Below, one piece after another: positions 41,691 to 49,007 of a stretch of DNA of 64,000 nucleotides. The position numbers were made by a program, and so were the translations under genes. Location of the stretch: positions 1 through 64,000 of the forward strand of contig JAICXB010000001.1 in the NCBI GenBank assembly GCA_025980765.1. The letters are read 5' to 3'. The notes under the pieces are model-generated. The model did no database searches and was not told the origin of the DNA. It saw only the letters and a program-made list of their open reading frames with translations. Source of the stretch: Terriglobales bacterium. GTDB taxonomy: Bacteria > Acidobacteriota > Terriglobia > Terriglobales > Acidobacteriaceae. Every line of letters begins with the position of its first letter. The first letter of the stretch is position 1.

Positions 41691-42086
41691 CTATTGTCCT
41701 GCTCCGCGCGCTTTGCCGCGCTCACCATCAATTTTGGTGATTAATGCCCACAGCATCTTCTTGATTTCGACAACTGGTTGGTTTAGCAATTTGTACTCAT
41801 CCGGGCTCAGATACTCCAAATCGCGAGCGAGTTCGAAGTGATTTTCCAGTTCACTAGATGATCCTGCGGCGATCCGCAAGAAACGAGAAAAGTCTCCGGG
41901 ATCTCCTCGACCGCATCCCTCTGCGATATTGGCAGAAATCGAACCCGCACAACGCCGGATTTGACTGGTCAAACTGAATCGTTCGTCATCTGGGAACCGC
42001 TTTGTTGCTTTGTGAATGGCCAGAGTGAGGACATGTGCTTTTCTCCAAACCAGCAGGTCTCTGAAATTTTGCAATTGGCACTCCAC
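41691..42086 (-). CDS. Four-helix-bundle protein (23S rRNA IVS / S23 type)
   Basis: 131 aa. The family pattern is clear: FRDLLVWRKAHVLTLAIHKATKRFP near the start, FSLTSQIRRCAGSISANIAEGCGRG, FLRIAAGSSSELENHFELARDL, and a late helix. Members occur in intervening sequences of 23S rRNA genes and as stand-alone genes; the function is unknown. It sits between manC and manA and is flanked on both sides by arms of one inverted repeat, like a small cassette. The C-terminal ERGKARGAGQ is atypical. Confidence 0.88.
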   Translation of the reverse strand: MECQLQNFRDLLVWRKAHVLTLAIHKATKRFPDDERFSLTSQIRRCAGSISANIAEGCGRGDPGDFSRFLRIAAGSSSELENHFELARDLEYLSPDEYKLLNQPVVEIKKMLWALITKIDGERGKARGAGQ

Positions 42087-44966: not shown

Positions 44967-45665
44967 TCACACCATCTTCATGCCCGCGCGCTTAACTTCC
45001 GGAGCGGCATCCTGGGCGGCCTTCAGCAGGTTGCGTGCGTTGCCCGTGATGTCGTGTCCGTCAAAGACGGCGCTGCCGGCAACCAGTAGTTCGGCTCCCG
45101 CGCGGACCACGTCGGCGACGGTGTCGTGGGCGATTCCACCGTCGACTTCAATGCGGAAATTCAGTCCGCGTTCTTTGCGGATGCGCGCCAGATTAGCGAT
45201 TTTGTGCAACGCGCCGCGAATAAACTTCTGCCCACCAAAGCCTGGATTCACTGACATCACCAGCACCAGATTCACCATGTCGAGCACTTCGCTGAGCGTC
45301 TCGACCGGTGTAGCGGGATTGATGACCACCCCCGGCTTGCAGCCGTGATGCTCAATCAACTGCAGCGTGCAATTCAGGTGCACGCAGGCTTCCTGGTGGA
45401 CAGAAATCCAGTTTGCCCCTGCGGCGGCAAAATCCGGGATGTAGCGATCGGCGTTCTCGATCATCAGGTGCACGTCAAAAATTGCATCGGTGATCGGCCG
45501 CATCCACTTGACGATTGGCGGCCCGAAGGTGATGTTGGGGACAAAGTGCCCGTCCATCACATCGAGGTGAACGATCGTCGCTCCACCTTTGATGGCGGCC
45601 AGTACGTTGTCCGCAAGATGCGCGAAGTCGGCGGAAAGAACTGAAGGTGCAAGCTCGATCAACAT
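44967..45665 (-). CDS. rpe: Ribulose-phosphate 3-epimerase
   Basis: 232 aa. TIM-barrel with the metal and catalytic residues seen: LSADFAHLADN, HLDVMDGHFVPNITFGP, VMSVNPGFGGQKF and EVDGGI. It interconverts Ru5P and Xu5P in the pentose phosphate pathway. Transcribed toward bamD across a 100-nt repeat. Confidence 0.96.
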   Translation of the reverse strand: MLIELAPSVLSADFAHLADNVLAAIKGGATIVHLDVMDGHFVPNITFGPPIVKWMRPITDAIFDVHLMIENADRYIPDFAAAGANWISVHQEACVHLNCTLQLIEHHGCKPGVVINPATPVETLSEVLDMVNLVLVMSVNPGFGGQKFIRGALHKIANLARIRKERGLNFRIEVDGGIAHDTVADVVRAGAELLVAGSAVFDGHDITGNARNLLKAAQDAAPEVKRAGMKMV

Positions 45666-45719
45666 AGGCGCTGCCCCGATTGTCAGGAGACTCTCACAAT
45701 TTTATCAGCTTCTGGGCCG

Positions 45720-45946
45720 TAAGAGCTTCTAAGCTGCTAAGCTTCTCAGCTCAGATGTGCCCGTCTCGGGGCAGACGGAGGCAATCTCGGTGCAGGTTTT
45801 TAGCAGCTTAGGAGCCAGGCAGCTTATCCAATCCTCTGGGCAAGCAAGCTTCTCCGCTGGAAGTGAGCCCTTTTGTGGCAAAATCGGACGCACTTTCACT
45901 ACAAAGGGTCAGCAGCTTAGGAGCTCAGCAGCTTAGAAGCTTCAAA
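45720..45946. repeat. Repeats of AGCAGCTTAGAAGCT words before the DedA gene
   Basis: Left words (about 45722-45755: agagcttctaagctgctaagcttctcagct) and right words (45907-45946: agcagcttaggagctcagcagcttagaagctt) form an inverted repeat. Further single copies lie between. Both neighbouring genes diverge from it. Confidence 0.8.
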
Positions 45947-45951
45947 ACCTC

Positions 45952-46938
45952 ATGCATGAAGCCTCCCAATTGATGCAGTTTCTGGCGCGCCACGGGTATT
46001 CCGTGTTGTTTCTCTGGGTGCTGGCCGAGCAGGGCGGCATCCCCATTCCTTCGCTTCCGCTTTTGATTGCCGCCGGCGCACTGTCGTCCTATGGAAAGCT
46101 CAGCTTCTCAGTCCTGCTGCCGGTCACGATAGTCGCGGCGATGATCAGCGATTTCATGTGGTACCAGCTCGGGCGGACGCAAGGCGGGAAGATTCTCAGC
46201 CTGCTCTGCCGCATCTCGCTCGAGCCCGACTCCTGCGTCAAAAACACTGAAAACCTGTTCATGAAGAAGGGAGCCAGTTCGCTGCTGGTCTCGAAGTTCG
46301 TTCCCGGGCTGAACACGGTAGCGCAGCCGATGGCCGGCATCGTGCGCCTATCCTGGGCGAAGTTTTTTATCTTTGATTTTTGCGGGACGCTGTTCTGGGC
46401 GGGAAGCATTCTAGTGGTGGGCAGAATTTTTCACCGCCAGGTGGAAGATGTTTTGGCGCTGCTGCATCGCTCTGGCCTGTCGCTGTTGGGTGTTGTCCTA
46501 TTCGCAGCTGCGTGCTGGGTGATTTACAAATACGTGCAGCGCCGCCGCTTCTTGCACAAGCTGCGCATTTCCCGCATATCCCCCGAAGACCTGCACCAGC
46601 AGATTGAAGGCGGCAAGCCGGTGGTGGTAGTCGATCTGCGCAATGAATTCGCTCTCGACCAAGACTCGGTGCAGGTGCCGGGAGCGATTCGACTTACGCC
46701 GGAACAATTGGAGGTGCGCCATGAGGAGATCCCGCGCGATCGCGACATCATCCTCTATTGCACCTGACCGAACGAGGCGACAAGCGCCCGGGTGGCGCTG
46801 CAACTGCAAAAACGGGGCATCACGCGGGTGCGTCCGTTGCTCGGCGGACTCGATGCATGGACCGCGCTGGAGTATCCCGTAGAGAAGGTCGCGATCACGG
46901 TAGAAAGCAGTCAGCACTCAGCAGTCAGCACTCAGTAG
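45952..46938 (+). CDS. DedA-rhodanese fusion with in-frame TGA (putative selenoprotein)
   Basis: 328 residues if TGA at 46765-46767 is read (position 272); 271 if it stops there. Residues 1-200 are a DedA/VTT membrane domain (FLWVLAEQGGIPIPSLPLL, FVPGLNTVAQPMAG, three or four helices). Residues 215-320 are a rhodanese domain (VVVVDLRNEFALDQDS, PGAIRLTPEQL, DIILYCT-U-PNEATSARVA, then GITRVRPLLGGLDAWTALEYPVE). The frame and rhodanese similarity continue without fault past the TGA, which falls in the active-site loop. A 6-bp hairpin starts 15 nt after it. Selenocysteine is the best reading; a nonsense mutation of a Cys codon is the alternative. The last ten residues come from a repeat. Confidence 0.7.
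46783..46799 (+). promoter_or_regulatory. Candidate bacterial SECIS hairpin
   Basis: A perfect 6-bp stem AGCGCC (46783-46788) with GGCGCT (46794-46799) and a 5-nt loop CGGGT. The loop begins 21 nt after the TGA and has G at its second position, within the usual spacing and loop rule for SelB-recognised elements. The stem lies in coding sequence, as expected for a bacterial SECIS. Confidence 0.5.
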
Positions 46939-47083
46939 GGCAGATGGCAAAGGCAAAAGGCAAAGGCCAAACCACGGATTACCCGGATCGGCACAGACTC
47001 TCACGGAGTACCAGAACAATAACTTCGCCAAAGCTGACCCTTGATTGCCGAAAGCTAAGTGCTGAATGCTGACTGATGAATGC
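46908..47083. repeat. Inverted repeat of AGTCAGCACTCAGCAGTC words with inner elements
   Basis: The left arm (46908-46937) encodes the tail and stop of the DedA-rhodanese gene. The right arm (about 47050-47083, aagtgctgaatgctgactg words) is its reverse complement. A ggcaaaggcaaaagg stretch and a ccacggatt element lie between them. Confidence 0.8.
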
Positions 47084-47108
47084 CGATCCCTGCCTGTAGA
47101 ATTCCCGG

Positions 47109-49007
47109 ATGCGATATGTTCGTTTTATCGCGCTCGGGTGCGCGCTGCTGCTTTTCGTTTTTTTCTGGGCTTGCGGACGAAGCACCAAAGTTTCCGGATC
47201 TCTAGATCCCGCCACGCTTACTTCGATTGCGGTTACCCCGGCCAATCAGACTCTTGCATCGGGCAACACCCAGCAATTCACGGCGACCGGATCATTTAGC
47301 GACGGCAGCACCCAGAACCTGAGCAGCTCGGTGACCTGGAGTTCGACCAATAGCGCCGCGGCGACAATCGCGCCCAATGGGATAGCGACGGCGGTTGCAG
47401 CGGGCAGCACAAGGATTCAGGCGGCTTCGGGATCAACGAGCGGAGCTACGAATCTGACGGTGGTTACCGCCGGAACGCCCAGCGCGAGCGTCGATGTGCT
47501 CACGTATCACGATGACAACGCCCGAACCGGCCAGAATCTGCAGGAGACGATCCTCACCCCCGCAAATGTGAATGCAAATGCTTTCGGAAAGCTGTTTGTC
47601 ATTTCAGTCGATGGCAAAGTCGACGCGCAGCCGCTGTATGTCTCAAACGTGAGCATTGCCGGCGGTACTCACAATGTGCTGGTGGTTGCCAGTGAGCACG
47701 ACAGCGTGTATGCCTTCGACGCGGATACCGGCACGAAATTGTGGCAGGTCTCGACGCTCAAGTCGGGAGAGACGACCTCCGAGCCGCGCTTCGGATGCAC
47801 GCAAGTGGAGCCCGAGATTGGGGTGACGGCCACGCCGGTAATTGATCGCAATGCCGGCCCGAACGGTACCATTTACGTCGTTGCCATGAGCAAAGATGCG
47901 TCCTCGCCGCCAAATTATTTTCAGCGGCTGCACGCGCTCAATCTCGTCACCGGCGCTGAGCAGTTTGGCGGGCCGAAGGATGTGCACGCCACTTTTCCCG
48001 GAACAGGAGACAACAGCAATGGAGACTCTGTCGTCTTCGCTCCCGCCGCATACAAAGAACGTCCCGGCTTGCTGCTGCTGAATGGAGTGGTCTACACCAC
48101 CTGGTCGTCGCATTGTGATATCGGTCCCTACACGGGCTGGATCATTGGCTACGATCAGAGCACGCTGGCGCAGACCAGCGTCTTCAACATCGTTCCCAAT
48201 GGGAGCGAAGCTTCGTTTTGGAACAGTGGCGCCGCGCCGGCTGCCGATGCTGTCGGCAATATTTACCAGCTCGCCGGCAATGGCACCTTCGACGCCACGC
48301 TTAATGCAAACGGATTTCCCGCTCGCGGCGACTTCGGCAATGCGTTTATCAAATTCTCGACAATCAATCGGCAGCTTGCGGTCGCCGACTACTTTGACAT
48401 GTTCAATACTTTGAGCGAGTCGGATGCCGATCAGGACCTCGGTTCTGGCGGCGCGCTGGTTCTGCCCGACCTTACGGAGGCGTCCGGCAGTGTGAAGCAC
48501 CTCGCAGTCGGCGCTGGTAAGGATGGCAACATCTACGTGGTCGATCGTGACAACATGGGCAAGTTCAAAGCGCAGGTCAACAATGTTTATCAGGAGATCC
48601 CCAATGCGATTGGCGCCGAGTTTGGCATGCCGGCGTACTTCAACAACACGATTTACTACGGCGGTGTGAGCGACAAGCTGAAGGCCTTCTCCATTTCGAA
48701 CGCGAAGCTCAGCGCAGCGCCTTCGTCGCAAACGAGCAATACTTTCGCGTATCCCGGAACAACCCCGGCAGTCTCCGCGAACGGGTCAAGCGATGGAATC
48801 GTCTGGGCAACCGAGAACACCGTTCCCGCCGTGCTGCACGCCTATGACGCGACCGATCTGTCGCACGAACTCTACAACAGCAATCAGGCAGCCGGCGGTC
48901 GCGACCAATTCGGGACGGGCAATAAGTTCATCACGCCAACCATCGTGAACGGCAAAGTATATGTTGGCACGACGAACGGCGTTGGAGTGTTTGGGCTGAT
49001 TCACTGA
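47109..49007 (+). CDS. Secreted lipoprotein with BIG2 domain and PQQ-type beta-propeller
   Basis: 632 aa. A hydrophobic signal with a possible lipobox (FFWAC, Cys22). One bacterial Ig-like (BIG2) domain (about 38-118: SIAVTPANQTLASGNTQQF, VTWSSTNSAAATI). Then a long region with PQQ-like propeller blades (VLVVASEHDSVYAFDADTG, LAVGAGKDGNIYVVDRDNMG, VYVGTTNGVGVFGL at the C-terminus). No catalytic residues recognised. Probably a cell-surface binding or enzyme-like protein; the substrate is unknown. Confidence 0.8.
   Translation: MRYVRFIALGCALLLFVFFWACGRSTKVSGSLDPATLTSIAVTPANQTLASGNTQQFTATGSFSDGSTQNLSSSVTWSSTNSAAATIAPNGIATAVAAGSTRIQAASGSTSGATNLTVVTAGTPSASVDVLTYHDDNARTGQNLQETILTPANVNANAFGKLFVISVDGKVDAQPLYVSNVSIAGGTHNVLVVASEHDSVYAFDADTGTKLWQVSTLKSGETTSEPRFGCTQVEPEIGVTATPVIDRNAGPNGTIYVVAMSKDASSPPNYFQRLHALNLVTGAEQFGGPKDVHATFPGTGDNSNGDSVVFAPAAYKERPGLLLLNGVVYTTWSSHCDIGPYTGWIIGYDQSTLAQTSVFNIVPNGSEASFWNSGAAPAADAVGNIYQLAGNGTFDATLNANGFPARGDFGNAFIKFSTINRQLAVADYFDMFNTLSESDADQDLGSGGALVLPDLTEASGSVKHLAVGAGKDGNIYVVDRDNMGKFKAQVNNVYQEIPNAIGAEFGMPAYFNNTIYYGGVSDKLKAFSISNAKLSAAPSSQTSNTFAYPGTTPAVSANGSSDGIVWATENTVPAVLHAYDATDLSHELYNSNQAAGGRDQFGTGNKFITPTIVNGKVYVGTTNGVGVFGLIH

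Follow-up and report, generated by a model that had tools for sequence, protein, structure and literature searches.

An in-frame UGA predicted to encode selenocysteine in a DedA-rhodanese fusion gene of Acidobacteriota

Does an in-frame TGA within the rhodanese half of a putative membrane protein gene end the protein, or is it read as selenocysteine (Sec)? The question is raised by a gene at 45952-46938 of the window (the whole 64,000-nucleotide stretch analysed in this study), for which a first-pass annotation had proposed a candidate selenoprotein with an in-frame TGA at 46765-46767 and the same frame running on to a TAG at 46936; these coordinates proved exact. The open reading frame starts with the ATG at 45952 and encodes 271 aa under the standard code, or 328 aa when the TGA is read through. 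Based on the comparative evidence below, UGA 272 of this gene is most probably read as selenocysteine, to which we assign a probability of about 0.92. With the TGA taken as Sec, the locus contains the following features:

45952..46938, + strand: DedA(VTT)-rhodanese gene, 328 aa with TGA as Sec; stop codon TAG at 46936-46938
46045..46422, + strand: VTT/DedA membrane domain, residues 32-157 (PF09335, E 2.6e-15)
46207..46209, + strand: Cys86, first of the DedA-domain Cys pair (Cys in 89/90)
46234..46236, + strand: Cys95, second of the pair (LCRISLEPDSCV; Cys in 86/90)
46294..46314, + strand: re-entrant helix tip KFVPGLN, with Lys115 and Asn121 at the positions of YghB Arg130 and Arg136, by alignment
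46579..46866, + strand: rhodanese domain, residues 210-305, with the TGA inside (PF00581, E 1.6e-10)
46759..46761, + strand: Cys270, start of the active-site CxU motif (Cys in 87/87 homologues reaching the position)
46765..46767, + strand: TGA codon, predicted selenocysteine 272 (frame, homologue column and Sec machinery)
46783..46799, + strand: SECIS-like hairpin AGCGCC-CGGGT-GGCGCT with a 6-bp stem

Once the TGA is read through, an N-terminal VTT domain and a C-terminal rhodanese domain lie in one chain, which makes the protein a DedA-rhodanese fusion. An AlphaFold2 model built with 35 sequences (mean pLDDT 78.1, pTM 0.62) places C270 directly behind a strand at 265-269, with a helix starting at residue 275. 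Foldseek against the PDB returned 31 matches at E 0.001 or better; the best of them are for the most part entries of rhodanese domains and span about 100-130 columns. The active-site loop of the rhodanese domain is two residues longer than that of GlpE. In the HMMER alignment, the Cys of GlpE and that of L005, from the window's own genome, fall in the Sec column, and YgaP has its Cys at C270; MAFFT places the Cys of all three at C270. This loop Cys is the catalytic one in GlpE, and either C270 or Sec272 may be the nucleophile of the window protein.

The window protein was searched against 396 Acidobacteriota genomes, with E 1e-30 or better counted as a match. The phylum is assigned from five loci in genomes of the window's family, each with 100% identity over 3.9 kb to contigs that bear the titles Granulicella, Acidobacteriaceae or Acidobacteria. 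As a result, 71 genomes were found to harbor a match. From the 92 places found, 90 were read, and the two left out (one in G265 and one in G131) contain the DedA half only. The TGA position is reached in 87 of the 90 places, the other three (L088, L099 and L100) having no residue at 272, and it is occupied by TGA in 32, Cys in 51, Ser in 3 and Arg in 1. Cys in most homologues and TGA in a recurring subset is the pattern on which the first-pass annotation had staked its reading. Its expectation that ordinary DedA-rhodanese fusions carry CxC here, with Sec in place of the second Cys, is likewise borne out by the homologues: the typical motif at the TGA is ILYCTUPNEATSAR, and Cys forms read ILYCTCPSEETSAK. 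The 32 TGA genes come from 30 genomes (29 besides the window's) and 12 families, and the Cys two residues ahead of the column is kept in every homologue that reaches it. The gene therefore has an in-frame TGA opposite a conserved redox Cys of its homologues, as is expected of a selenoprotein gene. In 31 of the 32 TGA genes this codon is the sole TGA of the aligned stretch; the remaining gene, L036, has a second TGA 43 codons further, at the domain end, where an ordinary stop is expected. The four homologues in which Ser or Arg takes the place of Sec (L090, L092, L095 and L098), three of which also have no intact DedA Cys pair, are perhaps a branch with another function.

Beyond these genomes, a contig scan with the single window protein as query yielded no relative. 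An alignment-based scan, in which 80 loci were kept of 251 confirmed, relied on a pattern that asks for Cys where the window has Sec; its 80 loci are therefore expected to be Cys forms by construction and are uninformative on Sec outside the phylum.

The presence of the Sec machinery was then compared with that of the TGA. SelB and tRNA-Sec are called signatures of the Sec-decoding trait in the excerpted text of PMC1273633, and the window's genome contains both, with SelB at 376.8 bits (cut-off 242.25) and tRNA-Sec at 64.9 bits (cut-off 47); ARAGORN also reports a tRNA-SeC with anticodon tca. SelD is present as well (369.8 bits, cut-off 125). The selD gene (L020, G000:C90) has its own in-frame TGA, in KAAGUASKL, and SelD of this genome is itself a probable selenoprotein. 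A search for selA in the genome, which is 83.78% complete, did not find it. The machinery check suggested with the initial proposal thus came out for selB, selC and selD, with selA not found in an assembly about 84% complete. The same genome also encodes a second, stand-alone rhodanese (L003, G000:C46, 1486-1833) with an in-frame TGA in YCTUPNEGSS, which scores 100 bits (E 7.4e-29) against NF041203, below the cut-off of 115.

Across the 71 matching genomes, selB above cut-off was found in 29/30 TGA genomes vs 5/41 others, selA in 28/30 vs 5/41, and tRNA-Sec of at least 60 bits in 26/30 vs the same 5/41; the 60-bit threshold is our own choice, since weaker matches include tRNA-Ser. A Fisher test of SelB against TGA over the 71 genomes gives p 2e-13, with the genomes being related and not independent. 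The exceptions among TGA genomes are G055, with no selB above cut-off, G000 (the window's) and G341, where selA was not found, and G026, G215, G230 and G330, whose tRNA-Sec matches reach just 50-51 bits and not 60. Most relatives in genomes without Sec machinery have Cys at 272. Conversely, in five genomes that have the machinery, none of the places examined holds a TGA form (G394, G043, G068, G221 and G131): G394, G043 and G068 contain Cys forms, the G221 gene is frame-disrupted, with another frame reading YCTCPNE, and the G131 place is the one left out of the reading.

Three other accounts of the TGA have to be weighed against Sec insertion. The incomplete assembly (83.78%) might lead one to suspect a sequencing error, with TGA miscalled for TGC or TGG, or a pseudogene with a real disabling mutation. 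The same codon in the same column of 32 genes from 30 genomes and 12 families, followed by a conserved frame, makes this explanation practically negligible, and assembly error is rejected by the recurrence itself. A true stop is the default reading of the code, and it would leave a 271-aa DedA protein with a truncated rhodanese, read-through being minor or regulated. Insertion of selenocysteine often falls short of full efficiency, which would suit such an arrangement. However, the mean identity of 31 TGA homologues to the window protein is 62% past the TGA (residues 273-309) vs 41% in the rhodanese part before it (210-271), and the TGA tracks the Sec machinery across genomes, so that a true stop is very improbable. 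In addition, synonymous codon differences after the TGA exceed non-synonymous ones in 5/6 close pairs by raw counts, the exception being L026/L028 with 5 synonymous vs 7 non-synonymous differences.

It is also conceivable that a reassigned or suppressor tRNA inserts Cys, Trp or some other residue at the UGA. Relatives have Cys at this position, so an inserted Cys could work; non-standard selC-like tRNAs are known, and the search of the window's genome did not find selA. Against this, TGA is the stop codon of 5/10 genes checked in the window (the TAG of the DedA-rhodanese gene is among the other five), and a reassigned genetic code is therefore rejected. Moreover, the genome contains tRNA-Sec, SelB and a TGA-bearing SelD, and selA accompanies the TGA in 28 of 30 genomes. 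We accordingly give little credence to the insertion of a residue other than Sec.

For the selenocysteine reading, SelB and Sec-tRNA(Sec) would read UGA 272 with the aid of the hairpin directly past the codon. This hairpin is as first described, with a stem AGCGCC/GGCGCT of 6 bp and the loop CGGGT at 46783-46799, 15 nt past the TGA. The G at loop position two, which had been offered as a bacterial SECIS feature, is indeed found in 32/32 TGA genes; as the second position of a codon for Arg or Ser, it is largely forced by the protein. In the window alone, the 62-nt fold does not stand out from shuffled sequences (z -0.66), the stem is seen in the 51-nt fold, a competing structure is seen in the 42-nt fold, and synonymous recoding of the gene yields a 5-bp stem in register 7.6% of the time. 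The window hairpin by itself is weak evidence.

Homologous genes were compared by a stem test that required 5 bp, with G-U allowed, in the fixed register of the window, with expectations from 1000 trials in which each gene was recoded synonymously from its own set of codons; 31 of the 32 TGA and 49 of the 51 Cys sequences remained after removal of duplicates. The stem occurs in 23/31 distinct TGA genes (expected 1.28, maximum 8 in 1000 recodings) and in 1/49 distinct Cys genes from the same homologue search (expected 1.75). Three loop-closing pairs are formed in 31/31 TGA genes vs 16/49 Cys genes, and the second TGA rhodanese, L003, forms the stem at the register of the window gene. The picture is different for Cys genes from named contigs, where a usable Cys motif was present in 77 of 80 loci. 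Among these, the stem occurs in 11/21 distinct genes encoding SAR[VTLA]A (expected 1.75, with 0/1000 trials as high) vs 6/56 others (expected 1.64), and in 0/3 of the Acidobacteria genes in this set. The contigs of all 11 stem-forming SAR[VTLA]A genes are titled Nitrospira, Nitrospirae or, in two cases, Nitrosospira. The hairpin is thus partly forced by the protein motif, and the stem-forming Cys genes reflect either descent from Sec forms or a codon context that favours the stem. The proposed SECIS-like element recurs in TGA genes but is less specific to them than first proposed. Because 11/21 comparable Cys genes form the stem, we count the hairpin as support only, and its use as decisive proof of Sec is rejected, as Nitrospira Cys genes form it too.

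A quick, unrooted tree of 87 proteins, built with the trait column removed, requires 4 Sec/Cys changes, 2 of them forced by well-supported branches, vs about 26-28 with shuffled labels, and, within the window's family, splits the Cys forms into two separate clades (37 and 11 rows). Such a pattern is consistent with Cys having replaced Sec repeatedly as the machinery was lost, a direction that we infer on an unrooted tree. The well-supported independent Sec/Cys contrasts number 2, too few for a significant phylogeny-corrected test; over 200 random pairings, SelB goes in the same direction in a mean of 1.6/2 contrasts and in the opposite direction in none. A separate clade of 16 relatives (L089, L091, L094, L097 and L101-L112) runs parallel to the main one and comprises 5 Sec and 11 Cys forms, with motifs such as IYLYCTU and IYLYCSC. 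The Cys forms on Nitrospira, Nitrospirae or Nitrosospira contigs (L113-L123, L125, L126, L128-L132, L150 and L162), which include the 11 with the SECIS-like stem, share 43-52% identity with the window protein and possibly go back to a Sec ancestor or to gene transfer.

What might such a protein do? The product would consist of an N-terminal DedA (VTT) membrane domain and a C-terminal rhodanese with Cys270-x-Sec272 in its active-site loop. The DedA half carries a Cys pair of its own, C86/C95, which is intact in 83/83 homologues with Cys or Sec at 272. In the four homologues with Ser or Arg at 272, these two positions are CS, CS, AQ and CC, that is, broken in 3/4, and in the three homologues short of 272 they are CC, CC and CS. 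By alignment, the pair is absent from E. coli YghB and from L002, the ordinary DedA of the window's genome. It is present together with the rhodanese pair in the two Betaproteobacterial fusions aligned, from Cupriavidus metallidurans and a Comamonadaceae plasmid; one further Cupriavidus locus, L196, was left out of the alignment. This distribution suggests a joint function of C86/C95 and 270/272, as in a two-site relay. The predicted Sec position, its machinery and the coupled Cys pairs are established by comparison of sequences. As for mechanism, it is quite possible, if short of even odds, that Cys270/Sec272 works as a redox centre, or as a carrier of persulfide or selenide, in exchange with Cys86/Cys95. 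At the membrane, the protein would then handle either disulfide electrons or a species of sulfur or selenium, whose transfer there the first-pass annotation had also proposed.

The DedA half could instead be an undecaprenyl-phosphate (UndP) flippase, with the seleno-rhodanese merely sensing or tuning it by redox, which would be compatible with the Sec reading. DedA proteins of COG0586 are proposed as UndP flippases, and rhodanese fusions placed in COG0586, in the excerpts of PMC10127716, and the acidic residues are mostly kept in the window's family (E26 is Glu in 70/90, D67 is Asp in 86/90). On the other hand, YghB Arg130 and Arg136, which according to the same excerpts are essential and likely form the phosphate site of these flippases, are not retained as a pair: the Arg136 position (121; Asn121 in the window) is Arg in 0/90 homologues, and the Arg130 position (115) is Lys in 87/90 and Arg in 3/90. 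The second re-entrant helix of the window protein thus has K115 and N121 where UndP flippases have two basic residues. Compared with UptA and YghB/YqjA, the window's family has in common the VTT domain, the mostly conserved acidic residues and the re-entrant helix motif, but differs in having no second essential Arg (90/90), Lys for the first (87/90) and an extra Cys pair. The DedA-rhodanese protein is therefore, as far as its residues tell, probably no plain UndP flippase, and a flippase tuned by the seleno-rhodanese is rather unlikely. Returning to the exchange between the two pairs, we tentatively suggest that these proteins might form a distinct non-flippase DedA subfamily in which the two Cys pairs shuttle disulfide electrons, or a persulfide or selenide, between the cytosol and the membrane. 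The title of Ledgham 2005 and part of a review connect a DedA protein of Ralstonia/Cupriavidus metallidurans with selenite. Cupriavidus metallidurans carries a DedA-rhodanese, which could possibly be that selenite-linked DedA.

Several known systems resemble parts of the window protein. CxU rhodaneses are listed in the available portions of PMC13188914 (form 3, NF041203) and PMC9312934. The 'rhodanese-related (seleno)protein' form 3 of NF041203 has CxU in the active-site loop, as the window protein does (match 2.2e-25); the latter scores 88.7 bits, under the cut-off of 115, and adds a DedA domain with a Cys pair to what is, in the model, one rhodanese domain of 126 positions. DedA/GlpE fusions (COG0586 + PF00581, e.g. 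PA1209 of P. aeruginosa) have the domain order of the window protein, and the two aligned have CxC at the Sec site and both Cys pairs, with Cys instead of Sec. The DedA-rhodanese fusion is mentioned in the excerpts of PMC10127716 and PMC12893004, where no link to selenium is stated, and the former calls the rhodanese-DedA connection unclear. TsoB, a rhodanese/DsbD fusion-like protein (NF045694; weak match, 7.3e-4), is a seleno-rhodanese that, to judge by its name, has a membrane partner, but this partner is another one and the TsoB motif, in the excerpt of PMC13188914, is UxxxxU rather than CxU.

Literature searches among open-licence papers, mostly at the level of listed titles, returned no report of a Sec-form DedA-rhodanese fusion, and DedA is unmentioned in the portions available of the selenoprotein papers PMC1794560, PMC13188914, PMC9312934, PMC2398784, PMC5029168, PMC1088965 and PMC12013277. 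In the excerpted part of the last of these, deep-Sep, one Acidobacteriota genome was examined, with 3 known selenoproteins; the Sec-form fusion may already lie unremarked in its Acidobacteriota data. CxU rhodaneses and Cys-form DedA-rhodanese fusions are thus known separately, and the combination of Sec with the fusion appears to be new as far as these searches reach. The C86/C95 coupling and the missing flippase Arg are features beyond the first-pass annotation. With Sec at 272, seleno-rhodaneses would gain a polytopic membrane domain, and a single predicted selenoprotein would recur across 12 families of one bacterial phylum, while standard-code annotation would end the protein at 271 aa. 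Moreover, the coupled Cys pairs and the absent flippase Arg make the question of the rhodanese-DedA connection testable by simple replacements.

The surroundings of the gene were also inspected. The upstream genes, on the minus strand, match Ribul_P_3_epim, YfiO, PMI_typeI, 23S_rRNA_IVP and NTP_transferase/ManC, and those downstream, on the plus strand, match Big_2, YbjQ, CTP_transf_like and an aminotransferase; the 23S_rRNA_IVP-family gene, at 41691-42086, sits between the ManC-like and PMI-like genes. Three neighbour genes were looked for within about 1.5 kb of the homologue in 29 loci, and none of them recurs; the gene thus seems to stand alone, and its neighbourhood gives no operon hint of function. 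An Rfam search of 45600-47200 gave one sub-threshold match alone (malK-III, E 0.74). Short tandem and inverted repeats lie on both sides of the gene, at 45724-45941 and 46906-47086, and a AGCAGTCAGCACTC repeat at 46906-46935 codes for the final residues, SSQHSAVSTQ, of the DedA-rhodanese protein.
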